A stretch of DNA of 64,000 nt, taken from the NCBI GenBank assembly GCA_009379925.1, contig WHSU01000004.1, positions 62,001 to 126,000 on the forward strand. The letters run 5' to 3'. Of the stretch, positions 29,257 to 46,579 are shown piece after piece. The notes beneath the pieces are model-generated. The model was not told the DNA's origin. It saw nothing but the letters and a program-made list of their open reading frames with translations, and ran no database searches. Position 1 is the first letter of the stretch; each line of letters opens with the position of its first letter. A program made the position numbers and the translations under genes. This stretch comes from Dehalococcoidia bacterium. GTDB lineage: Bacteria; Chloroflexota; Dehalococcoidia; UBA2979.

Positions 29257-31422
29257 ATGTGCGTGATGGACCAACACACTGGCCACGCCGAACAGCACCC
29301 GGATGCCGCGCGGAATGGCGGCCACGAACCGAGCGCGCACGCCGGTCACATGGAGCCCTCGCACGGTGAGGGCCACGAGGGCCACATGGCGCCCGGCGGC
29401 GGGCATCAGGAACACGGCGGACATGTCGAGCAGTACCGCCGCCTGTTCTGGGTGTCCCTGCTGCTGTCGCTGCCGGTGTTTCTGTTCTCCGACTCCATCC
29501 AGGGTTGGCTGAACTACTCCCTCCCGGCTTTCCCGGGCGATGGGTGGGTCGCGCCGCTCTTGGGGACGGCGGTCTTCCTGTATGGCGGGCGGGTCTTCCT
29601 GCAAGGCGCCGCGGACGAGGCGCGGCGCTGGCAGCCGGGGATGATGCTGCTCATCTCCCTCGCGATTGCGGTCGCCTTCCTCGCCAGCGCCGCCGCGACC
29701 TTTGGGCTCTTCGAGATGGAGTTCTGGTGGGAGCTGGCCGCGCTGGTCGACGTGATGTTGCTCGGCCACTGGCAGGAGATGCGCGCGCTGGGCCAGGCCC
29801 GAGGCGCGCTGCAGGCCCTTGCCGCCCTGCTGCCGGATGAGGCCGAACGCGTCGTCGATGGCGGCACCGAGTCCGTCCCCATCGCCGACCTGCGCCGGGG
29901 CGACACCGTCCTCGTGCGCCCGGGCGCGCGCGTCCCCGCGGACGGCGAGATCATCGAGGGGCGAGCGGAGTTCGACGAGTCGATGCTGACCGGCGAGTCG
30001 CGCCCGGTCTCCAAAGACCGCGGCGACCGCGTGGTCGCGGGCGCGGTGGCGGCCGGCGCCGCCGTGCGCGTGCGCGTGGATGCGGTGGGCGAGGAGACGG
30101 CGCTCGCCGGCATTCAGCGGCTCGTCGAGCAGGCGCAGACGTCGCGCTCCCACGCGCAGGCGCTGGCCGACCGGGCCGCCGCGCTGCTGTTCTACGTCGC
30201 CATCGGCGCGGCCGTCGTCACCTGGGTCGCGTGGGCGATCGCGGGCGACATCGGTCGCGGGACGATGCAGACCGTGACGGTGCTCGTGATCTCCTGCCCG
30301 CACGCGCTGGGCCTCGCCATCCCGCTGGTGATCGCGATCGGGACCGGGCTCGCGGCACGGCACGGCATCCTCGTGAAGGACCGCCTGGCACTCGAGCGGA
30401 TGCGGACGGTACAGGTCGTCCTATTCGACAAGACGGGCACGCTCACGCGCGGCGAGCACGTGGTCACCGACGGCGCCGCCGTCGATGGCAACGGCGACCG
30501 CTTGCTGCGGCTCGCCGCGGCCGCCGAAGCGGACTCGGAGCACCCGCTGGCCCGCGCGATCGTCCAGGCGGCGAGTCCGCTCGGCGCGCTGCCGGGGGCA
30601 TCGGACTTCCGCGCCGACCCCGGCCGAGGCGTCACCGCCCGCGTCGAAGGTTCCGAGGTCGCGGTCGGCGGCCCGGGGATGCTCCGCGAGCGCGGCCTGG
30701 GGGCGCCGGATCCGCTGCGGGCGGAGATCGAGCGATGGAAGGCGCGCGGGGCCACCGTGCTCTACACGCTGCTCGACGGCCAGGTCGCGGGCGCGCTGGC
30801 GCTCGAAGACGAGGTGCGGCCGGAGTCCCGTGAGGCCGTCGACGCCCTTCACGACCTGGGTGTACGCGTAGGGATGATCACCGGGGACGCCCGCGAGGTC
30901 GCGGACGCCGTCGCCGCCGAACTCGGCATCGACGAGGTCTTCGCGGAGGTCCTGCCGGACCAGAAGGCCTCCGCGGTAGCGGCGCTCCAGGCCGACGGCC
31001 TGACCGTCGCGATGGTGGGCGACGGGGTGAACGATGCGCCGGCGCTCGCGCTAGCGGATGTCGGCATCGCGATCGGAGCGGGGACGGACGTGGCGATCGA
31101 GTCGGCGGGCGTCGTGCTCGCCTCCGACGACCCGCGTGCCGTGATCAACACGGTCCGGCTGTCGCAGGCCGCGTACCGCAAGATGCTCCAGAACCTCGCC
31201 TGGGCGGTGGGCTACAACGCGCTCGCGATCCCGCTGGCCGCCGGGGTGCTGGCGCCCTGGGGCCTGGTCCTGCCGCCGTCGGTCGGCGCGCTGCTGATGA
31301 GCGCCTCGACGATCGTGGTAGCCCTCAACGCGCAGTTGCTGCGGCGCGTGGACCTGACCACGGCGCCGCGGGGGGAGCGAAGCACGAGCCCGGCGCGCCC
31401 GCTACAGGCCGCGCATCACTAG
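29257..31422 (+). CDS. copB: Copper-translocating P1B-type ATPase, CopB type
   Basis: A 721-residue heavy-metal P-type ATPase. The transmembrane metal-binding motif is CPH (C347-P-H349) in SCPHALGLAIP, typical of the CopB/P1B-3 subclass rather than the CPC of CopA. The phosphorylation site is DKTGT with D391, and the hinge is GDGVNDAPALA with D589. Instead of CxxC domains the N-terminus is His/Met-rich (GHMEPSHGEGHEGHMAPG). It uses ATP to pump copper across the cytoplasmic membrane. The start is taken as ATG 29257; 29266 is an alternative. It begins a four-gene copper cluster downstream of a CsoR-type operator. Confidence 0.92.
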   Translation: MCVMDQHTGHAEQHPDAARNGGHEPSAHAGHMEPSHGEGHEGHMAPGGGHQEHGGHVEQYRRLFWVSLLLSLPVFLFSDSIQGWLNYSLPAFPGDGWVAPLLGTAVFLYGGRVFLQGAADEARRWQPGMMLLISLAIAVAFLASAAATFGLFEMEFWWELAALVDVMLLGHWQEMRALGQARGALQALAALLPDEAERVVDGGTESVPIADLRRGDTVLVRPGARVPADGEIIEGRAEFDESMLTGESRPVSKDRGDRVVAGAVAAGAAVRVRVDAVGEETALAGIQRLVEQAQTSRSHAQALADRAAALLFYVAIGAAVVTWVAWAIAGDIGRGTMQTVTVLVISCPHALGLAIPLVIAIGTGLAARHGILVKDRLALERMRTVQVVLFDKTGTLTRGEHVVTDGAAVDGNGDRLLRLAAAAEADSEHPLARAIVQAASPLGALPGASDFRADPGRGVTARVEGSEVAVGGPGMLRERGLGAPDPLRAEIERWKARGATVLYTLLDGQVAGALALEDEVRPESREAVDALHDLGVRVGMITGDAREVADAVAAELGIDEVFAEVLPDQKASAVAALQADGLTVAMVGDGVNDAPALALADVGIAIGAGTDVAIESAGVVLASDDPRAVINTVRLSQAAYRKMLQNLAWAVGYNALAIPLAAGVLAPWGLVLPPSVGALLMSASTIVVALNAQLLRRVDLTTAPRGERSTSPARPLQAAHH

Positions 31423-31900: not shown

Positions 31901-32548
31901 ATGCAACATCACATGCGATGGCTGTGGCGCGCCGGGGTACTCGGCGCGGTGGCCCTCGCGACCTTCGCCATCGCCACAGTCGCGGAGGCCCACGAGCGCC
32001 GCGAGGTCGCCGGGCACACCTTTGTCGTCGGGTTCGAGGTCGAACCGGCGTTGGAGAGCGAGCCGAACGCCGTCAGCGTCCGCATCACCCAGGGAGAAGG
32101 GGACGCGACGACGCCGGTGGAGGGCCTGGAGGAGAGCCTCCAGGTGGAGGTGACCCACGCAGACTCCGGGACGGCGGCTACCTACCCGTTGTCGCCGGCG
32201 TTCGGGGACGCGGGGCACTACACCGCCGACCTGATCCCCACCGCCACGGGCACATACAGCTTCCGCTTCTTCGGGAGCCTCGGCGGCCAGGAGATCGACG
32301 AAGTCTTCGAGTCGGGCGAGGGCACGTTCAGCGACGTGGGCTCCGCCCAGGTGCTGCACTTCCCTCGGGAGGTGGCGGCGGTCTCCGAGCTACAGGGCGT
32401 GGTGCAGGGTGCACAGGACGCGGCCTTCGATGCGGAGGACCAGGCCTCGAGCGCCCAGACCGTGGCGACCGCGGCGCTGGCGGTCGGCGCGCTGGGTGTG
32501 GTCGTCGGCGGCGTCGGCGTGGCCATGGCCGCGCGCCGCAAGAGCTAG
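31901..32548 (+). CDS. Secreted, C-terminally anchored protein, copper cluster
   Basis: A 215-residue protein with an N-terminal signal (GVLGAVALATFAIATVAEA), an immunoglobulin-like outer domain and a C-terminal membrane helix (TVATAALAVGALGVVVGGVGVAMAA) followed by RRKS. The domain's strand EVTHADSGTAATYPL and YTADLIPTATGTYSFRFFG resemble YtkA/FixH-type proteins found near copper proteins. It should face outside the cytoplasmic membrane. Start at 31901 follows GAGGGAG. It lies between the His-rich gene and the CopC-CopD fusion, probably one transcript. Confidence 0.72.
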   Translation: MQHHMRWLWRAGVLGAVALATFAIATVAEAHERREVAGHTFVVGFEVEPALESEPNAVSVRITQGEGDATTPVEGLEESLQVEVTHADSGTAATYPLSPAFGDAGHYTADLIPTATGTYSFRFFGSLGGQEIDEVFESGEGTFSDVGSAQVLHFPREVAAVSELQGVVQGAQDAAFDAEDQASSAQTVATAALAVGALGVVVGGVGVAMAARRKS

Positions 32549-32600
32549 CTGGAGGGATGGGCGCGAGGGCGGTGTCCGCCCCGCGCCCACCGCATCGCCT

Positions 32601-34859
32601 ATGCGCCACGCCACCGTCCGGCTCCTCCTCGTCGCTGCCGCGTTGCTCGGCGCGCTTATCTCGAGCGCCGGGCCGGTCTCCGCGCACGCGAATGTAGTCG
32701 GTTCGACGCCGACGGCAAACTCGGTGCTCCAGCTGTCACCGAGACAGGTCGAGATCACCTTCAGCGAACCGCTGGCGTCCGACTTCAGCCGGGTGGACGT
32801 GCTGAACTCCACCGGTGACCGCATCGACCTCGGCGACAGCGTCGTCGACCCGGCCGACCCAACGCGCATGACCGTCTCCCTGCCGGCGCTGGAGCCGGAC
32901 ACCTACACCGTGGCGTGGCGCAACCTGTCGACGGTGGACGGCCACTCGTTGCAGGGCTCGTTCGTCTTCTTTTACCGAGTGGAGCCAACGGCCACGACGC
33001 CCGACATCGCGGACCCGCCCGTCCTTCAGTCGCCCGCCGACCCGGTGGTGCGCTGGCTCGTGTTGGCCGCTGCTATCGCGGCGGCCGGCATCCCGATGTT
33101 CGCGCTCGTGGTGCTGCGCCCGGCGGCGGCGATCAGCCGCACGTCCGCCTCCGCGCTCGCACCGCTCGAGGCGTGGGTACGGCGCGCGACGGTGATCGCG
33201 CTCACGGCGCTGCTCGTGCTGTCGGCTGCGCAGATCTGGGTGCAGACCTCGATCGCGACCGGGGCGACCCTCGATGTGTTCGGTGAGCCGATGCTGAGGG
33301 TGGCGCGCGACACCCGCTGGGGCCAGGCCTGGGCGTGGCGCGTGCTGCTCGCCGGCGCCGCCGTCGGCGGCCTCCTCGTGTCGACGCGCGTGCGCAGCGG
33401 CTGGCTGGCGCGCAACGGCCGCCACGTATCGTTGGCGCTTGCCCTCGGCGCGCTGGGCACCTTCTCCTTCGCGAGCCACGCCGCCGCGACACCCGAGGCG
33501 TCCCGGCCGGCCATCGGCGCGGACCTGCTCCACCTGCTGGCCGCCGCCGCGTGGGTGGGCGGGCTCTTCGGACTGCTCGGCGCGCTCGTGGTGCTCCGGC
33601 GCACGCTCCCGGACGCCGAGGAGCGGCGGCTGCTCGCGGCGGCCGTGCCGCGCTTTTCGCTGCTGGCGGTGATGAGTACGACCGTGCTCGTGGTGACGGG
33701 GCTGTACTCGACGTGGGTGCAGGTGACCGTGTTCCGCGGGCTCGCCAGCCCCTATGGCTGGGCGTTGATCGCCAAGATCGTGCTCTTCGCGGGGCTACTC
33801 GCGCTCGGCGCGGTGAACCTGCTGCGCATCCGCCCCGCCCTCCCGAGCGCACCCCGCGCCGCCGGGCTGCTGCGGCGCATCGTACGCGTCGAGGTGGTGC
33901 TCGCCGTCCTCGTGCTGCTCGCCGTCGGACTGATGACGAGCATGGAACCCGCCCGTCAGACCGCCGAGCGCGAGGACGCGCGCGCGGGCCTGCGCTTCGA
34001 GGGCGAGGACGGCGCCACGCAGGTCGAGCTGCGGCTCCAACCCGGCACGGTCGGCGCCAACCGCGCAATCATCGAGGTGCGCGACCGGCGCGGCGAGCCG
34101 GTGGAGGACGCGGAACGCGTCGTCCTGCGCCTCACCTACCTCGACGGCGAGTTCGGCGCGGATAGCTTCACCGCGACCGGCGGCGAGGATGGCCGGTACG
34201 TGGCAGAGGCCGTGACGGCCAGCGTCGCCGGCGTGTGGCAGACCGAGGTGCTGGTGGAGCGCCCGGACGCCTTCGACGCGCGGTCGGCGTTCCGCTTCGA
34301 ACTCGGCGCGACTGCGGAGGTCGGGTCCCGCATCGAGATCTCGGAGCGTGTGGCGTGGCAGCTGGCCGTCCTCGGGAGCGCCGTGATCGGTGTCGCCTTC
34401 CTGGCGATCGGGTGGACCGCGAAGCGGGACCGCCGTCTTCCGCAAGCGGCGGTGACCACGGCCGGCGTGGCTGCGCTGTCGCTCGCGTTCGTCCTGCTCG
34501 GACGGCTGCCCACGGACTCGACAGCGCTGGCGGGGGGACGCAACCCGATCCCGCCGAGCGCGGAGTCGGTGGCGATGGGCCAGGAGATCTACACGGCGAA
34601 CTGCGCGCCCTGTCACGGCGAGGCGCTTCATGGCGACGGGCCGGGTGGTGCGGGCCTGGAGCCTCCGCCGGCAGACCTCACGGTCCATGTCCCGCTGCAC
34701 AGCGACGAGGCGCTATTCAACATCATCTCGCTGGGCGTCACCAACACCGCGATGCTCGGGTACGAGGACGAACTGACCGCGGACCAGCGGTGGCACCTCA
34801 TCAACTACCTGCGGTCGGCCGCGGCCGACGTCGATGCCGCGGCGGCCCCGGCGCCGTAG
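32601..34859 (+). CDS. CopC-CopD fusion with C-terminal cytochrome c
   Basis: A 752-residue, multi-domain protein. A signal peptide (to about residue 28) is followed by a CopC domain whose mature N-terminus is His (H29 in SAHANVVGSTP), with VDGHSLQGSFVF as the second copper site. Residues about 130-450 are a CopD-type membrane domain with many helices. A soluble Ig-like/YtkA-like domain follows (RLTYLDGEFGADSF), two more helices, and a cytochrome c domain with heme site CAPCH (C668, C671, H672) and downstream Met in TAMLGYEDELTADQ. This joins copper uptake/relay to an electron carrier in one chain. Start at 32601; an upstream extension was rejected. It closes the copper cluster. Confidence 0.9.
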   Translation: MRHATVRLLLVAAALLGALISSAGPVSAHANVVGSTPTANSVLQLSPRQVEITFSEPLASDFSRVDVLNSTGDRIDLGDSVVDPADPTRMTVSLPALEPDTYTVAWRNLSTVDGHSLQGSFVFFYRVEPTATTPDIADPPVLQSPADPVVRWLVLAAAIAAAGIPMFALVVLRPAAAISRTSASALAPLEAWVRRATVIALTALLVLSAAQIWVQTSIATGATLDVFGEPMLRVARDTRWGQAWAWRVLLAGAAVGGLLVSTRVRSGWLARNGRHVSLALALGALGTFSFASHAAATPEASRPAIGADLLHLLAAAAWVGGLFGLLGALVVLRRTLPDAEERRLLAAAVPRFSLLAVMSTTVLVVTGLYSTWVQVTVFRGLASPYGWALIAKIVLFAGLLALGAVNLLRIRPALPSAPRAAGLLRRIVRVEVVLAVLVLLAVGLMTSMEPARQTAEREDARAGLRFEGEDGATQVELRLQPGTVGANRAIIEVRDRRGEPVEDAERVVLRLTYLDGEFGADSFTATGGEDGRYVAEAVTASVAGVWQTEVLVERPDAFDARSAFRFELGATAEVGSRIEISERVAWQLAVLGSAVIGVAFLAIGWTAKRDRRLPQAAVTTAGVAALSLAFVLLGRLPTDSTALAGGRNPIPPSAESVAMGQEIYTANCAPCHGEALHGDGPGGAGLEPPPADLTVHVPLHSDEALFNIISLGVTNTAMLGYEDELTADQRWHLINYLRSAAADVDAAAAPAP

Positions 34860-34871
34860 GGAACGCCCCAG

Positions 34872-34901
34872 TTGACGATGTCGCTCACACGCGCCGATAC
34901 T
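34872..34901 (+). promoter_or_regulatory. Sigma70-type promoter of the ilv/leu operon
   Basis: TTGACG (34872-34877) and GATACT (34896-34901) are 18 bases apart. Transcription would start about 34907-34911, right at the leader-peptide ATG (34911), so the leader peptide would be translated from a leaderless or nearly leaderless mRNA. Confidence 0.65.
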
Positions 34902-34910
34902 GACGGCACG

Positions 34911-34994
34911 ATGCACGGCGCTACTACCTCAGCCGCCGCCCCCTTGCCGTCCGCCACCCTCGGCGGGCTCGTCCTCGTACTCGTACTTACTTAG
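34911..34994 (+). CDS. Putative Leu/Val leader peptide for ilvB operon attenuation
   Basis: A 27-residue ORF (MHGATTSAAAPLPSATLGG then LVLVLVLT, stop TAG). The last sense codons contain seven alternating Leu and Val codons in a row. This is the hallmark of attenuator leader peptides of branched-chain amino-acid operons: shortage of charged Leu or Val tRNA would stall the ribosome there. The ORF starts at the expected transcription start and sits 128 bases before ilvB. GC hairpins follow immediately. It is too short for normal gene calling. No ribosome profiling is available, so translation is inferred. Confidence 0.6.
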   Translation: MHGATTSAAAPLPSATLGGLVLVLVLT

Positions 34995-35090
34995 GCGGCG
35001 CCTGCCTTCGCGCAGCCGTCGCCGCCCCAGCCCGCGTGTCGGGCTCTCCGTGTTTCTAGACCTGAACAGCGAACGCCCCGATGATGGGGC
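34994..35090 (+). promoter_or_regulatory. Candidate attenuator hairpins upstream of ilvB
   Basis: Directly after the leader stop, GGCGGCG (34994-35000) pairs with CGCCGCC (35020-35026). Next AGCCCG (35029-35034) pairs with CGGGCT (35040-35045) around CGTGT and is followed by CTCCGTGTTTCT, a weak T-rich tail as in a terminator. A third hairpin, GCCCC/GGGGC around GATGAT (35075-35090), lies before ilvB. A clear mutually exclusive anti-terminator was not found by eye, so the mechanism is a hypothesis. Confidence 0.45.
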
Positions 35091-35122
35091 CACCCCAGAC
35101 GAGCAGGATTCGGGTACTACCT

Positions 35123-36865
35123 ATGACCAAGATGAGTGGCGCCGATATCGTCCTGGAGAGCCTGAAGCGGCTCGGTGTGGACGTGGTCTTCGGCTACCCC
35201 GGGGGCGTCGTGCTCCCGCTCTACGACCGCTGGCCGAGCCACCCCGAGGTGCGGCACATCCTGGTGCGCCACGAGCAGGGTGGTGGGCATGCGGCGGACG
35301 GCTACGCACGCGCGACCGGCAAGCTGGGCGTGGCGCTGGCCACCTCCGGACCGGGCGCGACCAACCTGGTGACCGCGATCACGAACGCCATGATGGACAG
35401 CGTCCCCACGCTGTTCATCACCGGCAACGTCGCCCGTAACCTGCTGGGCCGGGATGGCTTCCAGGAAGCGGACATCACAGGCATCACGATGCCGATCGTG
35501 AAGCACAACTACCTGGTGATGCGCCCGGAGGACCTGGCGTACACCTTCGCGGAGGCCGCGCACATCGCCACCACCGGGCGCAAGGGCCCCGTGCACATCG
35601 ACATCCCGAAGGACGTGTTCATCGAGGAGGCCGAGTTCGAGTGGCCGTCCGAGGTGACCATCCGCGGCTACCGCCCGGTGAGCCGCGGCAATCCCGCACA
35701 GGTGAAGCGCGCCGCCGCCATGATCGACGCCGCGGAGCGCTCGATCATCTTCGCGGGCCACGGCATCATCCTGGGCGGCGCCGCCGAGGAACTGCGGAGC
35801 TTCGCCGAGAAGACCGGCACGCCCATCCTGAATACGCTGCTGGGCCTGGGCTCCATCGACCCGGGTCACGTGCTGGCATACGGCATGATGGGGATGCACG
35901 GTTCCTACTGGGCCAACCACGCCGCTTCGAACGCCGACGTGATCATCGCCCTGGGCATGCGCATGGACGACAGGGCGCTCGGCCGCTTTGAGGACATGAA
36001 CCCCACCGCGAAGATCGTCCACATTGACATCGACCCCGCCGAACACAACAAGAACATCATGGCCACGGTGCCCATCGTGGGCGACGTGAAGGAAGTGCTG
36101 CCGCAGCTGACGGAGGCGGTTCAGTCCAACAGCCACGTGGAGTGGTTGCGCTGGATCGACCGGCTCCGCGTGGACCACAAGTCCTCGATGTCCGTGCCGG
36201 ACGGCACTGCGCTGACCACGCAGTATGTCTGCACCCGCATCGCGGAGGCAGCGGGGCCGGAGGCGGTGATCACCACGGGGGTCGGCCAGCACCAGATGTG
36301 GGCCGCCCAGTTCATGAACATCTCACGGCCGCACCAGCTGATCACTTCGGGTGGCCTCGGCACCATGGGGTTCGAGGTGCCGGCCGCCATGGGCGCGCAG
36401 GTCGCCTGCCCCGACCGCACGGTGTGGACCATTTGCGGCGACGGCGGCTTTCAGATGACCTTCCAGGAGATCGCGACCATGGTCGACGAGCGGCTCCCGG
36501 TGAAGATGGCCATCATGAACAATGGCTACCTGGGCATGGTCCGCCAGTGGCAGGAACTCATCTACCAGGACAACTACGTCTCCGTCGCGATGTCCCAGCC
36601 CGACTTCGTCAAGCTGGCGGAGGCCTACGGCATCAAGGGCATCCTGGTCACCGACCAGTCCCAGGTGGACGACGCGATCGCGGAGGCGCACGCGCACGAC
36701 GGCCCGGTGCTCATCGACTTCCGCGTGGAAGCCGAGGGCAACGTGTGGCCCATGGTGCCCGCCGGCGCCTCGCTGAGCGAGACGGTGGAGAGCCCGGACG
36801 AGGTCGACGCGCTGCTCGGGCGGCCTCCGAAGGCAGTGCCCACGCGGACGGGAGCCGCGCGATGA
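35123..36865 (+). CDS. ilvB: Acetolactate synthase (AHAS) large subunit
   Basis: A 580-residue ThDP-dependent enzyme. The catalytic Glu is E51 in VRHEQGGGHAADGYARATG. The middle domain has PVHIDIPKDVF, and the ThDP/Mg motif reads GDGGFQMTFQEIATMVDE...MNNGYLGMVRQ. It condenses pyruvate with pyruvate (toward Val/Leu) or 2-ketobutyrate (toward Ile). Start at 35123 (MTKMSGAD), with the second ATG at 35132 possible. Its stop overlaps ilvN as ATGA. It is the first structural gene of the branched-chain operon and lies behind the leader peptide. Confidence 0.97.
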   Translation: MTKMSGADIVLESLKRLGVDVVFGYPGGVVLPLYDRWPSHPEVRHILVRHEQGGGHAADGYARATGKLGVALATSGPGATNLVTAITNAMMDSVPTLFITGNVARNLLGRDGFQEADITGITMPIVKHNYLVMRPEDLAYTFAEAAHIATTGRKGPVHIDIPKDVFIEEAEFEWPSEVTIRGYRPVSRGNPAQVKRAAAMIDAAERSIIFAGHGIILGGAAEELRSFAEKTGTPILNTLLGLGSIDPGHVLAYGMMGMHGSYWANHAASNADVIIALGMRMDDRALGRFEDMNPTAKIVHIDIDPAEHNKNIMATVPIVGDVKEVLPQLTEAVQSNSHVEWLRWIDRLRVDHKSSMSVPDGTALTTQYVCTRIAEAAGPEAVITTGVGQHQMWAAQFMNISRPHQLITSGGLGTMGFEVPAAMGAQVACPDRTVWTICGDGGFQMTFQEIATMVDERLPVKMAIMNNGYLGMVRQWQELIYQDNYVSVAMSQPDFVKLAEAYGIKGILVTDQSQVDDAIAEAHAHDGPVLIDFRVEAEGNVWPMVPAGASLSETVESPDEVDALLGRPPKAVPTRTGAAR

Positions 36866-37440
36866 AGCACACCGTCGTCGCACTGGTTGAGGACCGCCCG
36901 GGCGTCCTCAACCGCGTCGCCTCGCTGTTCCGCCGTCGCGGCTTCAACATCGACTCACTGGCCGTCGGGACGACCGAGCAGCGCGGCATCTCGCGCATGA
37001 CGATCGTCCTGGACGGCGCGGACGGCATCGTGGAGCAAGTGGAGAAGCAGCTCTACAAGCTGATCGATGTCGTGAAGGTCTCCGACCTGACGAAGGAAGA
37101 GGCGGTCATCCGGGAGCTGGCGCTGATCAAGGTGCGCTGCAGCCCGGAACAGCGCCGCGAGATCCTCGACCTGGTCGACATCTTCCGCGCACAGGCAGTC
37201 GATGTGTCGCCGACCAGCCTGATGCTGCAGATCACGGCCGCCACGGAGACCCTGGACGCGTTCATCGAGAACCTGCGGCCGTACGGCATCCGGGAGATGG
37301 TGCGCACGGGCCGCATCGCGGTGACGCGTGGGGCGAGGGCGACCGCCGTGCACGAGCGCGAGGCCGCGCCGGCGGAACGCTTCCACGAGCAAGCAGGCCG
37401 CCGTCCCGAGGAGGACGCGCTGCCCTACGTGAGCAAGTAG
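36862..37440 (+). CDS. ilvN: Acetolactate synthase small (regulatory) subunit
   Basis: A 192-residue protein with an N-terminal ACT domain (residues about 3-75; HTVVALVEDRPGVLNRVASLFRRRGFNIDSL) and a C-terminal domain (LALIKVRCSPEQRREILDLVDIFRA). It binds the large subunit and confers valine feedback inhibition. Its ATG overlaps the ilvB stop by four bases, so the two are translationally coupled, as their stoichiometry needs. The last 25 residues (REAAPAERFHEQAGRRPEED) are a disordered tail. A 147-base palindromic repeat region follows. Confidence 0.96.
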   Translation: MKHTVVALVEDRPGVLNRVASLFRRRGFNIDSLAVGTTEQRGISRMTIVLDGADGIVEQVEKQLYKLIDVVKVSDLTKEEAVIRELALIKVRCSPEQRREILDLVDIFRAQAVDVSPTSLMLQITAATETLDAFIENLRPYGIREMVRTGRIAVTRGARATAVHEREAAPAERFHEQAGRRPEEDALPYVSK

Positions 37441-37587: not shown

Positions 37588-38595
37588 GTGGCAAAGGTTT
37601 ACTACGACCGGGACGCCGAACTCGAGCTGCTGAACGGCAAGAAGGTCGGGGTGATCGGGTTTGGATCCCAGGGACACGCCCACGCGCTGAACCTGCATGA
37701 CTCCGGCGTCGACGTCGCGGTCGGGCTCTACCCCGGCTCTTCCTCGTGGGCGAAGGTCGAGGCCGCCGGCGTGAAGGTCGGCACCGTAGACGACGTCGCC
37801 CGCGACTCCGACATCATCATGATCCTCGTGCCCGACCAGGTGCAGAAGCAGGTCTACGAAGACCACGTCGCCCCGCACCTGGAGGACGGCGGCAAGACGC
37901 TGATGTTTGCGCACGGTTTCAACGTGCACTTCGGCCAGATTAAGGCGCCGGAGGGCGTGGACGTCTCGATGATCGCGCCCAAGGGCCCCGGCCACCTCGT
38001 GCGGCGGGTCTACCAGGAGGGCTTCGGGGTACCGGCGCTCGTCGCGATCCACCAGGACGCGAGCGAGAGCGCGCTGGCCACCGCGCTGGCGTACGGCAAG
38101 GGCATCGGCGCCGCCCGCGCCGGAATCCTCGAGACGACGTTCCTCGAGGAGACGGAGACGGACCTCTTCGGCGAGCAGACGATCCTCTGCGGCGGCGTCA
38201 CGTCGCTGGTGAAGGCCGCCTTCGAGACGCTGGTGGAGGCCGGCTACCAGCCGGAGTCCGCGTACTTCGAGACCTTCCACGAGCTGAAGCTGATCGTCGA
38301 CATGATGTACGAGGGCGGCATGGCCAACATGCGCTACTCCATCAGCGACACCGCCGAGTACGGTGACTACACCCGCGGCCCGCGCGTCATCGACAGTGGT
38401 GTGAAGGAGCGTATGGGCGAGGTCCTGCGTGAGATCCAGGACGGCCGCTTCGCCCGCGAGTGGATCGCCGAGAACCAGGTGGGCCAGCCACACTTCCGCG
38501 CGCTGCGGCGCATCAACGCCGACCACCCGATCGAGCACGTCGGCAAGGAGATGCGCTCGATGATGGCGTGGCTGAACGAGGGAAAGTCGAAGTAG
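37588..38595 (+). CDS. ilvC: Ketol-acid reductoisomerase (class I KARI)
   Basis: A 335-residue, single-knot (class I) KARI. The Rossmann motif is [19 protein letters not shown] and the Mg sites lie in the C-terminal knotted domain ([27 protein letters not shown]). It converts acetolactate to 2,3-dihydroxy-isovalerate and the Ile homologue using NAD(P)H. The cofactor loop reads GLYPGSSSW where many class I enzymes have GLRxGS; this may affect NADPH preference (inference). It follows ilvN after the palindromic repeat, in the same operon. Confidence 0.97.
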
Positions 38596-38850: not shown

Positions 38851-40413
<1,563 letters not shown>

Positions 40414-40468
40414 TATGCGCCTCGCCCCCGGGGCGGACGCGACGACGACACGAAGGAAGAGACGCGCC

Positions 40469-41875
40469 TTGAGCACGCCGAAGACGGTCATCGAGAAGAT
40501 CTGGGACGAGCACGTGGTGCGGGCGGAGGAGGGGGTCCCCGACCTCCTCTACATCGACCTGCACCTGGTGCACGAGGTCACGTCCGCGCAGGCCTTCGAG
40601 AGCCTGCGCCTGAACGGCCGCACGGTCCGCCGGCCCGAGCTGACGCTCGCGACGGTCGACCACAACGTGCCGACGACGGACCGCACGCTGCCGAACCCGG
40701 ACCCGCTCTCCGCGCAGCAGATCGAGGTGCTGCGGCAGAACGCGAAGGAGTTCGGCATCCCGCTGTGGGACATCTTCGACATCCGCCAGGGCATCGTGCA
40801 CATCATCAGCCCGGAGCACGGCCTCACGCAGCCGGGTATGACCATCGTCTGCGGCGACTCGCACACCTCGACGCACGGCGCCTTCGGGGCGCTCGCCTTC
40901 GGCATCGGCACGTCGGAAGTGGAGCACGTGCTGGCGACGCAGACACTGCCGCAGGGCCGCCCGAAGACGATGGCCGTCGATGTCTCGGGGCAGTTGCACG
41001 ACGGCGTCACCGCGAAGGACGTCGTGCTGGCGATCATCCGGCGTATCGGCGTGGACGGCGGTGTCGGCCACGTCATCGAGTACCGCGGCGACGTCATCCG
41101 CAGCCTCTCCATGGAGGGGCGGATGACCATCTGCAACATGACCATCGAGGGTGGCGCGCGCGCCGGCCTGGTGGCGCCGGACGACACGACGTTCGAGTAC
41201 CTCAAGGGCCGCGAGTTCGCGCCGCAGGGCGACGAATGGGACCGAGCGGTCGAGGTATGGCGCAACCTGGCGACGGACGAGGGTGCGTCCTTTGACACCG
41301 TCATCGAGCTGCGCGGGGAGGACATCGAGCCGCACGTCACGTGGGGCACGACGCCTGCGCAGAGCGTGGGCGTCACGGACCGCGTGCCGCGGCCGGAGGA
41401 CGCGCCGACATCGAGCGCGCGCGAGACCGCCGAGCGCTCGCTGAAGTACATGGGACTGCGGGCCGGTACGCCGATCCAGGAGATCGAGGTGGACCGCGTC
41501 TTCCTTGGCTCATGCACCAACGGGCGGATCGAGGACCTGCGCGCGGCCGCGAAGATCGTGGACGGACGCAAGGTGGCAGGCTCGGTCCACGCGATGGTGG
41601 TGCCAGGCTCCGGGCTCGTGAAGCAACAGGCGGAGGAAGAGGGCCTTGACGCGATCTTCAAGGACGCCGGCTTCGAGTGGCGCGAGGCCGGCTGCTCGAT
41701 GTGCCTGGGGATGAACCCGGACATTCTGCTGCCCGGCGAGCGCTGTGCCAGCACCAGCAACCGCAACTTCGAGGGCCGGCAGGGCGCAGGCGGCCGCACC
41801 CACCTCGTGAGCCCTCAGATGGCGGCAGCCGCCGCCATCGAGGGGCACTTCGTGGACATCAGGGAGTGGAAGTAG
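40469..41875 (+). CDS. leuC: 3-isopropylmalate dehydratase large subunit
   Basis: A 468-residue aconitase-family enzyme. The three [4Fe-4S] ligands are C349 (FLGSCTNGR), C409 and C412 (GCSMCLGMN). The N-terminus reads [15 protein letters not shown], and [15 protein letters not shown] is the substrate-binding loop. With LeuD it isomerises 2- to 3-isopropylmalate. The TTG at 40469 is chosen because AAGGAAG lies before it and the protein then has normal length; an in-frame ATG at 40415 would add 18 arginine-rich residues. The DUF4160/DUF2442 pair separates it from leuD. Confidence 0.96.
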
Positions 41876-42417: not shown

Positions 42418-43038
42418 ATGAACCCCGTACACACCGTCCAGGGCAACGCGCTCCCCTTGAACCGCGCCGACGTGGACACGGACCAGATCATCCCGAAGCA
42501 GTTCCTCAAGCGCATCGAGCGCACGGGGTACGGCGAATTCGCGTTCTTCGACTGGCGGAAGGACCCCGACTTCATCACGAACCGCCCCGAGTTCAAAGAC
42601 GCGCCGATCCTGCTGGCCCAGCAGAACTTCGGCTGCGGCTCCAGCCGCGAGCACGCGGTGTGGGCGCTCGAGGACATGGGCGTGCAGGCGATGATCGCGC
42701 CGTCCTTCGCGGACATCTTCCGCAACAACTGCAGCAAGGTGGGCCTGCTGACCATCCAGCTCCCCCAGGAGGATGTGGACTACCTGATGTCCCGCGCCGA
42801 GGAGCTGCCGAGCGCCCAGATCACCGTCGACCTCGAGACGCAGACCGTGACCGCCGGCGCCGGCTGGGTGCGGCATTTCGATGTGGACCCGTTCATCAAG
42901 CACCGCCTCCTCAACGGCCTGGACGACATCGGACTGACGCTCCAGCACGACGACTCCATCGCGAAGTTCGAGACGACGCGCCCGGCCCTCAAACCGACGA
43001 CCGAGCGCGCCTTCGCGGATACCCTGAAGACCGGCTAG
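42418..43038 (+). CDS. leuD: 3-isopropylmalate dehydratase small subunit
   Basis: A 206-residue protein of the LeuD family: VQGNALPLNRADVDTDQIIPKQFLKRIERTGYGEFAFFDW at the start, NFGCGSSREHAVWALEDMGVQAMIAPSFADIF in the middle, and ITVDLETQTVT near the end. It forms the swivelling domain of the LeuCD isomerase. The ATG immediately follows the DUF2442 stop. A good hairpin terminator (43063-43086) comes 24 bases after its stop, so leuD ends the ilv-leu operon. Confidence 0.96.
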   Translation: MNPVHTVQGNALPLNRADVDTDQIIPKQFLKRIERTGYGEFAFFDWRKDPDFITNRPEFKDAPILLAQQNFGCGSSREHAVWALEDMGVQAMIAPSFADIFRNNCSKVGLLTIQLPQEDVDYLMSRAEELPSAQITVDLETQTVTAGAGWVRHFDVDPFIKHRLLNGLDDIGLTLQHDDSIAKFETTRPALKPTTERAFADTLKTG

Positions 43039-45481: not shown

Positions 45482-46579
45482 ATGGCGACGTTCGACATCC
45501 TCGTGCTGCCGGGAGACGGCATCGGCCCCGAAGTCACCGCCGAAGGCGTGCGCGCGCTCGAGGCCATCGGGCAGCGCTTCGAGCACGTCTTCCGCTTCTC
45601 GGAGGACCATGTCGGTGGCGCCGCCATCGATGCATACGGGGTGCCGATCCGGCCCGAGACCCTGGAGGAGGCCAAGCGCTCGGATGCCGTGCTCTGGGGC
45701 GCCGTCGGCCTGCCGAAGTACGACAACGACCCGAGCGCGCCGGTGCGGCCCGAACAGGGCCTGCTCCAACTGCGCCGCGACCTGAACCTGTGGGCCAACC
45801 TGCGGCCCGTGCGCACCGAACCCGCCCTCACGCACGCCTCGACGCTCAAGCCGGAGGTGATCGAGGGCGTGGACATCCTGGTGATCCGCGAGCTGACCAG
45901 CGGCATCTACTTCGGCGAACCGCGCGAGCGCCGCATGGTGGACGGCCGCCGCGAGGCCGTCAACACCATGTACTACAACGAGGACGAGGTCGCCCGCGTC
46001 GCCCACCTCGGCTTCCGCGCCGCGCGACAGCGCCGCGGCAAGCTCACGAGCGTGGACAAGGCGAACGTGCTCCAGGTCTCGCAGCTCTGGCGCGAGGTGG
46101 TGACCGAGGTCGCGCGGGAGTACCCGGACGTCGAGCTGGAGCACTTGATCGTGGACGCGGCGACCATGCACCTGATCCGCCGCCCGCGTGACTTCGATGT
46201 CATCATCGCGGGCAACCTCTTCGGCGACATCCTCACGGACGAAGCCTCGATGCTCACGGGCTCGCTGGGGATGCTGCCCTCGGCGTCCCTGACCGAGCCG
46301 CGCGAGGATGGCACGAGCCTCGGGATGTACGAGCCGATCCACGGCTCCGCCCCGGACATCGCCGGCAAGGGCATCGCGAACCCGCTGGCGATGGTCCTCA
46401 GCGCCGCGCTGCTACTCCGCCACTCCTGTGGCCTCGAGGAGGAGGCGCAGGCCCTCGAACGCGCGGTCGCACGCACCATCGAGGACGGTCTGCGCACGGC
46501 CGACCTCGCCTCCGGCGACGAGCGCGCGCTGTCGACGCGCGAGATGGCGGACGCGGTCCTCGAGCGCATCGGAGGTTAG
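45482..46579 (+). CDS. leuB: 3-isopropylmalate dehydrogenase
   Basis: A 365-residue enzyme of the isopropylmalate/isocitrate dehydrogenase family. It opens [26 protein letters not shown], has substrate-binding [35 protein letters not shown] and [20 protein letters not shown]. It has metal-binding [39 protein letters not shown], and cofactor loop [21 protein letters not shown]. It oxidises 3-isopropylmalate with NAD+. It stands apart from leuACD with its own promoter. It converges with a NUDIX gene. Confidence 0.97.

Follow-up and report, generated by a model that had tools for sequence, protein, structure and literature searches.

A candidate leucine- and valine-sensing leader-peptide attenuator before ilvB, with a second copy before leuS, in a family of Dehalococcoidia

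Introduction

How is the ilvB gene of this Dehalococcoidia bacterium controlled? The window (the whole stretch of DNA analysed, 64,000 nucleotides) contains the following genes for branched-chain amino acid synthesis, two of which we name from sequence only.

35123..36865, + strand: ilvB, acetolactate synthase large subunit (start at 35123 supported by homologues)
36862..37440, + strand: ilvN, acetolactate synthase small subunit
37588..38595, + strand: ilvC, ketol-acid reductoisomerase
38851..40413, + strand: leuA, 2-isopropylmalate synthase
40415..41875, + strand: leuC, 3-isopropylmalate dehydratase large subunit
42418..43038, + strand: presumably leuD, 3-isopropylmalate dehydratase small subunit
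45482..46579, + strand: what we take to be leuB, 3-isopropylmalate dehydrogenase

The original prediction was that ilvB is preceded by a ribosome-stalling attenuator. Because the products of ilvBNC-leuACD-leuB make Val and Leu, the gene content supports sensing of these two amino acids. On the other side of the leader, a fusion-like ORF with CopC, CopD and cytochrome c domains (32409-34859, start provisional) ends 12 nt before the -35 box, and a P-type ATPase gene (29266-31422) lies upstream of that ORF.

Results

Promoter and leader ORF

The leader begins with the following features.

34872..34877, + strand: -35 box TTGACG (read directly; TTGAC is kept in homologous leaders)
34896..34901, + strand: -10 box GATACT, after an 18-nt spacer (same spacing in most relatives)
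34908..34911, + strand: predicted transcription start (the 9-nt gap from the -10 box to the ATG is kept in the family)
34911..34994, + strand: leader peptide ORF MHGATTSAAAPLPSATLGGLVLVLVLT, 27 codons, TAG at 34992-34994 (frame conserved in 54/55 leaders)
34968..34988, + strand: seven control codons L V L V L V L (CTC GTC CTC GTA CTC GTA CTT), read directly

The promoter TTGACG-N18-GATACT and the 27-codon ORF with seven alternating Leu and Val codons are both present as originally predicted, and the proposal of a near-leaderless start gains support from the spacing in homologous leaders: the gap between the -10 box and the ATG is 6-11 nt in 55/55 leaders and exactly 9 nt in 33/55. This suggests that the 5' UTR is about 0-3 nt long, which would make the transcript leaderless in a broad sense. 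For comparison, the distance from the -10 box to the start averages 6.3 nt in S. lividans (PMC8079986). Within 15 kb there is no sigma-70-type match other than the ilvB-leader promoter. The combined pattern TTGAC-N20-ATACT-N6-10-ATG occurs three times in the 3.5-Mb genome, at the ilvB leader, at a leader before leuS and at one helix-turn-helix protein gene. The last of these (L199, G000:C29:67453-67491) is probably leaderless.

Conservation of the frame was tested with the promoter and nearest ATG picked blind to the frame. In 54 of 55 leaders the ORF is open and shares the frame of the conserved TAG; the leaders are 18-36 codons long and include close relatives and duplicates, so that they do not represent 55 independent events. 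Leu and Val make up 75% of the last eight codons compared with 16% of the earlier ones. The conserved core, CTC GTA CTT, occupies positions -12, -9 and -6 from the stop. Among the ilvB leaders there is Leu at -6 in 31/31, Leu at -12 in 30/31 and Val at -9 in 29/31 (GTA in 26/31); the codon at -3 is variable, and here a single Thr codon separates the Leu/Val run from the TAG (LVLVLVLT-TAG). Two of the core codons are rare in the six window genes counted, GTA accounting for 4.1% of Val codons and CTT for 2.9% of Leu codons. The locus shows one mark of a leader-peptide attenuator: upstream of the operon, its short ORF holds clustered codons for the amino acids that the pathway makes.

Distribution

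In an alignment with homologous upstream regions, the check that the original prediction proposed, the Leu/Val run and the stems both recur before ilvB in most family members. The whole element (promoter, near-zero 5' UTR, frame, Leu/Val end, stop and stems) precedes ilvB in the majority of the members of a single Dehalococcoidia family, with a covariance-model match in 36/44 family genomes. A pattern scan of genomes returned Chloroflexi and Dehalococcoidia records in which the match is nearly always before ilvB; of the exceptions, L068 is truncated by the end of its locus, and the matches in L056 and L078 look like chance. The pattern also hit other phyla (Pseudoalteromonas, Actinomadura and others) at sites that do not precede ilvB; these hits were rejected as chance.

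Several hundred genomes outside the family were also searched, and only two matches look real. In G038, which belongs to the same class, a divergent copy of the element stands before ilvB. G736, from another family of the phylum, has a leader (L194, reverse strand, G736:C198:2116-2198) that reads MHRILSRSSQRLLLS-TAG, ends in Leu and has a hairpin at the stop followed by a strong terminator; it lies before a leuA-like gene, named from its sequence. This may be the same kind of control, possibly reached independently. The leader matches no family among the Rfam covariance models, including hits with E up to 10, and on these models it matches neither the T-box nor the ppGpp riboswitch of ilv/leu genes.

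A second copy before leuS

A covariance-model search of the bacterium's own genome gave two strong matches: the ilvB leader and a copy outside the window, before leuS (L084, G000:C58:94047-94117). The leuS copy has the promoter, ATG spacing and stem A of the ilvB leader, and its conserved positions hold Leu codons only; GTA is absent. The corresponding second-class matches were fetched from relatives, and 20/20 are before leuS, most with a promoter of this type and an ATG close by. A UAG-anchored stem A is common to the leuS leaders, which have Leu at -12 in 16/17 and at -6 in 17/17. At -9 they have GTC, CTC, GCC or GGC (one has a stop), and never GTA. What has changed is the codon for an amino acid that has no bearing on LeuS. 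On re-use, then, the control codons match the regulated gene (Leu and Val in ilvB copies, Leu in leuS copies), and this Leu-only copy is the best evidence that the codons act as sensors. By these comparisons the frame, the codon identity and the stop are under selection, and the codons follow the target gene.

Three leuS leaders of genus g12 (L159, L164 and L168) have the conserved TAG mutated to TCG, TGG and CAG, so that the next stop falls within the hairpin A loop or close to it. They amount to a natural experiment on where translation has to end. Further candidate targets in the same genome, at G000:C9 (E 0.03, R1), C29 (E 0.004, R2) and C58:15196 (E 1.2), have no such leader ORF, look coding and were rejected.

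Hairpins A and B

The leader ORF is followed at once by two hairpins and a tail.

34994..35023, + strand: hairpin A (GGCGGCG/CGUCGCC plus an inner stem), starting on the G of the stop codon; covariation
35029..35045, + strand: hairpin B (AGCCCG-CGUGU-CGGGCU), terminator-like, 5 nt after A; covariation
35046..35057, + strand: tail CTCCGTGTTTCT 3' of hairpin B, moderately U-rich

In the seed alignment, 96.9% of cells in stems A and B are paired, with six doubly changed pairs, as against 38-55% for slid partners, and the covariation score is 0.280 against 0.045-0.067. In the leuS copies alone, stem A is paired in 96.6% of cells, with 6/12 pairs doubly changed, and stem B in 69%. The joint alignment was fitted to the model and its covariation counts lean toward the structure. 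Recurrence and compensatory base changes together indicate that the features of the ilvB leader are beyond chance. The folding energy of the whole leader is not significant (z -0.53), which is expected to be uninformative at 70% GC.

The GC hairpins that were predicted directly after the ORF are thus supported by covariation. A T-rich tail had also been assigned to one of them; CTCCGTGTTTCT does follow B, but it is only moderately T-rich. Across the ilvB copies the fraction of T after B is 0.52-0.58 at +2 to +4 and 0.42-0.55 at +8 to +10, compared with 0.15 in the next 60 nt, and this U-rich tail would fit intrinsic termination. The leuS copies have no U-tract, and their next 60 nt are 42% C and 10% T. 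As a terminator, then, B has a covarying stem, but its U-tract is poor in the ilvB copies and missing from the leuS copies.

The loop of B, CGUGY, is kept in many copies and varies in L011, L017, L069 and L080. We rejected hairpin B as a genome-wide terminator: GCCCGCGTGNCGGGC occurs only twice, and the other copy has no leader. In the AT-rich ilvB leaders of genus g8 (L172-L174) the promoter, terminal LLVL codons and a long hairpin A are kept, hairpin B is merely ACCC-GCAA-GGGT, and there is an extra 10-bp hairpin within the leader ORF.

Search for an antiterminator

The original prediction implied competing terminator and antiterminator structures. We looked for these by calculating the probability of B with the RNA freed from different ribosome edges, by masking ribosome footprints in the full transcript, by examining the AT-rich genus g8 and by comparing own- with other-species duplex energies between all segments. 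With RNAfold, B is kept in most species without a ribosome, with one at the stop, and with one stalled at -24, -12, -9 or -6. In the duplex test, A with A and B with B alone stand out; a few other pairs reach p 0.01-0.04 and are lost on correction. By these tests, which were uncalibrated on known attenuators, no conserved antiterminator or alternative helix was found, and A and B are adjacent and compatible. This part of the original prediction is not borne out, the U-rich tail being weak here and absent in leuS copies. We have not filed the element as a classical trp/his-type attenuator, because it has no conserved alternative helix and A and B are compatible; an antiterminator exclusive with the terminator was not seen in this uncalibrated test.

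Discussion

Proposed mechanism

The data suggest that a family of environmental Chloroflexota probably senses its leucine and valine supply by ribosome stalling. The attenuator reading of the original prediction is well supported to the extent that there is a conserved leader-peptide element with Leu/Val codons; comparison of the sequences gives good support to everything up to a translated sensor of Leu/Val. From this we infer a start site, translation, stalling, termination and sign of regulation as follows. The transcript would start on the leader ATG or no more than about 3 nt from it, leaving a bare 5' end for a 70S ribosome to load on. It would translate into the cluster of Leu/Val codons, some of them rare, which ends one codon before the UAG. 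When charged Leu- or Val-tRNA is short, the ribosome would park with its front touching hairpin A or already within it, and there would be more read-through into ilvBNC-leu. When the tRNAs are charged, it would finish and leave, A would refold beside B, and transcription would stop at or just past B, before ilvB. The second copy, with Leu codons only, would act likewise on leuS. We think it likely that the element is such a ribosome-stalling attenuator, in which parking leads to read-through into ilvBNC-leu and, via the Leu-only copy, into leuS. How an open A would lead to read-through is guesswork, since the search for an antiterminator found none.

The geometry is unlike that of trp/his attenuators, in that the conserved control codons lie 8-14 nt from hairpin A. 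A ribosome covers about 12 nt ahead of its A site, so that one parked on these codons, or at the stop, should abut or open A. It is this geometry, with the lack of a third helix, that leads us to favour read-through by a parked ribosome; such a mode of action is established or proposed for the leaderless IlvL and LeuL peptides already described (PMC11857589, PMC8079986). Several observations count against it. The tests above gave no conserved antiterminator helix, and RNAfold keeps B in most species wherever the ribosome sits. Stem B is paired in only 69% of cells in the leuS copies, which have no U-tract, and the stop is further downstream in the three g12 leuS leaders. A starved ribosome could stop earlier in the run, before hairpin A. 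Additionally, regulation of S. coelicolor ilvB, which has a similar leader, was not lost on codon change, as cited in PMC1262725.

Alternative explanations

The first alternative is a classical attenuator whose competing antiterminator, being a pseudoknot or having species-specific partners, was missed by static folding and the helix test. In single species (L013, L014, L015 and L027) B is indeed lost when A is blocked, and uncorrected own-species advantages are seen for the leader ORF with the 3' arm of A (p 0.011) and for the Leu/Val segment of leuS copies with B (p about 0.012). None of these survives correction for about 40 tests, in a helix test uncalibrated on a known attenuator, and about half the species retain strong B stems. 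We consider this alternative rather unlikely.

Secondly, the position of the ribosome might gate access of Rho to C-rich, G-poorer RNA past the leader ORF, with A and B as pausing or boundary hairpins. The leuS copies, C-rich and lacking a U-tract, together with a rho gene in the genome, make this a real rival, for leuS at least. Rho has been proposed for the terminator-less actinobacterial cys leaders (PMC1262725), and other leaders with no typical terminator have been left open (PMC8079986). However, B is conserved as a stem, the ilvB copies are U-enriched at +2 to +4 and +8 to +10, and high C content is general in a genome of 70% GC. On balance we consider Rho-dependent attenuation unlikely.

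Control of ilvB translation or mRNA stability, with the leader ORF and hairpins setting RNA cleavage or ribosome entry, would suit the several species in which B has no strong U-tract, but there is no conserved hairpin at the ilvB start and the spacing from the leader stop to ilvB differs among species, so we regard it as improbable. A riboswitch-like RNA that binds a ligand or protein, the ORF being incidental, is very improbable: the loop of B is conserved in many copies, but it varies in others, there is no Rfam match, the frame, codon identity and stop are under selection, and the codons follow the target gene.

A bolder and rather less likely reading is attenuation without an antiterminator. 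The control codons would be placed beside the stop to make a starved ribosome park at the stop-codon hairpin, and its presence there, with no rival helix, would by itself decide whether RNA polymerase passes B or Rho acts. A single leaderless module would serve ilvB and leuS through a change of codons. A family of about 50 members, with two targets of differing codons and strong covariation, yields clear predictions about the sensing codons, the key stems and the coupling of leaderless initiation to attenuation.

Comparison with known systems

We found no report of a leader-peptide attenuator in Chloroflexota in the open-access literature searched; subscription papers fell mostly outside this search, which is not proof of absence. 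In Actinobacteria, leaderless leader peptides for branched-chain amino acids are established or proposed at ilvB and leuS (PMC11857589, PMC8079986, PMC1262725, PMC10272879, PMC13236596), and include IlvL of C. glutamicum (PMC11857589) and IlvL and LeuL2 of S. lividans (PMC8079986). The leaderless IlvL/LeuL peptides of Corynebacterium and Streptomyces are the closest known systems.

Corynebacterium IlvL (the ilvB-II motif), in the sections of PMC10272879 and PMC11857589 that describe it, is likewise leaderless (start one nt from +1), has branched-chain amino acid codons including CUU and GUA, and stands before ilvBNC with a terminator hairpin following; codon and start mutations abolish or lower expression. 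In contrast, those sections describe a terminator against an antiterminator pairing with the upstream part of the leader, whereas no competing helix was found here, and they describe no stop-codon-anchored hairpin such as the Chloroflexota leader has. The comparison with ilvB-II is by description, and the Rfam library gave no match to our leader. In S. lividans, LeuL2 (leuS) and IlvL (ilvBHC) have the same two targets, are leaderless, are Leu-rich or contain branched-chain amino acids and have hairpins downstream, and other leaders there have no U-tract (PMC8079986). Their peptides, however, are 12-13 codons long with the control codons inside, and no two-hairpin family joining both targets is described (PMC8079986); in our family a single alignable element serves both targets, and its control codons stop one codon short of the UAG.

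The ilvB1NC attenuator of M. tuberculosis, compared by description, has a uORF with LVVI control codons and a terminator before ilvB, and a codon change removes induction; unlike ours, it has an explicit terminator/antiterminator switch, a U-tract and a 5' UTR on the leader (PMC13236596). PMC10272879 reinterprets two structured RNAs, the ilvB-OMG and ilvB motifs, as uORFs; these are rich in branched-chain amino acids and Thr and lie in structured leaders before ilvB, but neither was detected here by Rfam with E up to 10, in a library that may not include each. In one reading our leader resembles Rho-dependent attenuation of the tnaC type, in that expression is ON while a ribosome sits parked where the leader ORF ends. 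TnaC, however, senses free Trp via the nascent peptide (PMC8429421), whereas the codon content of the Chloroflexota leader points to tRNA charging. The LEU element, an actinobacterial leuA pseudoknot at the ribosome-binding site, differs in gene and layout (PMC1262725).

On this comparison, Actinobacteria and Chloroflexota seem either to share leaderless leader peptides at ilvB and leuS or to have evolved them independently. Our verdict is that the ilvB/leuS element is a lineage-specific version of known ribosome-stalling attenuation and not a new kind of control.
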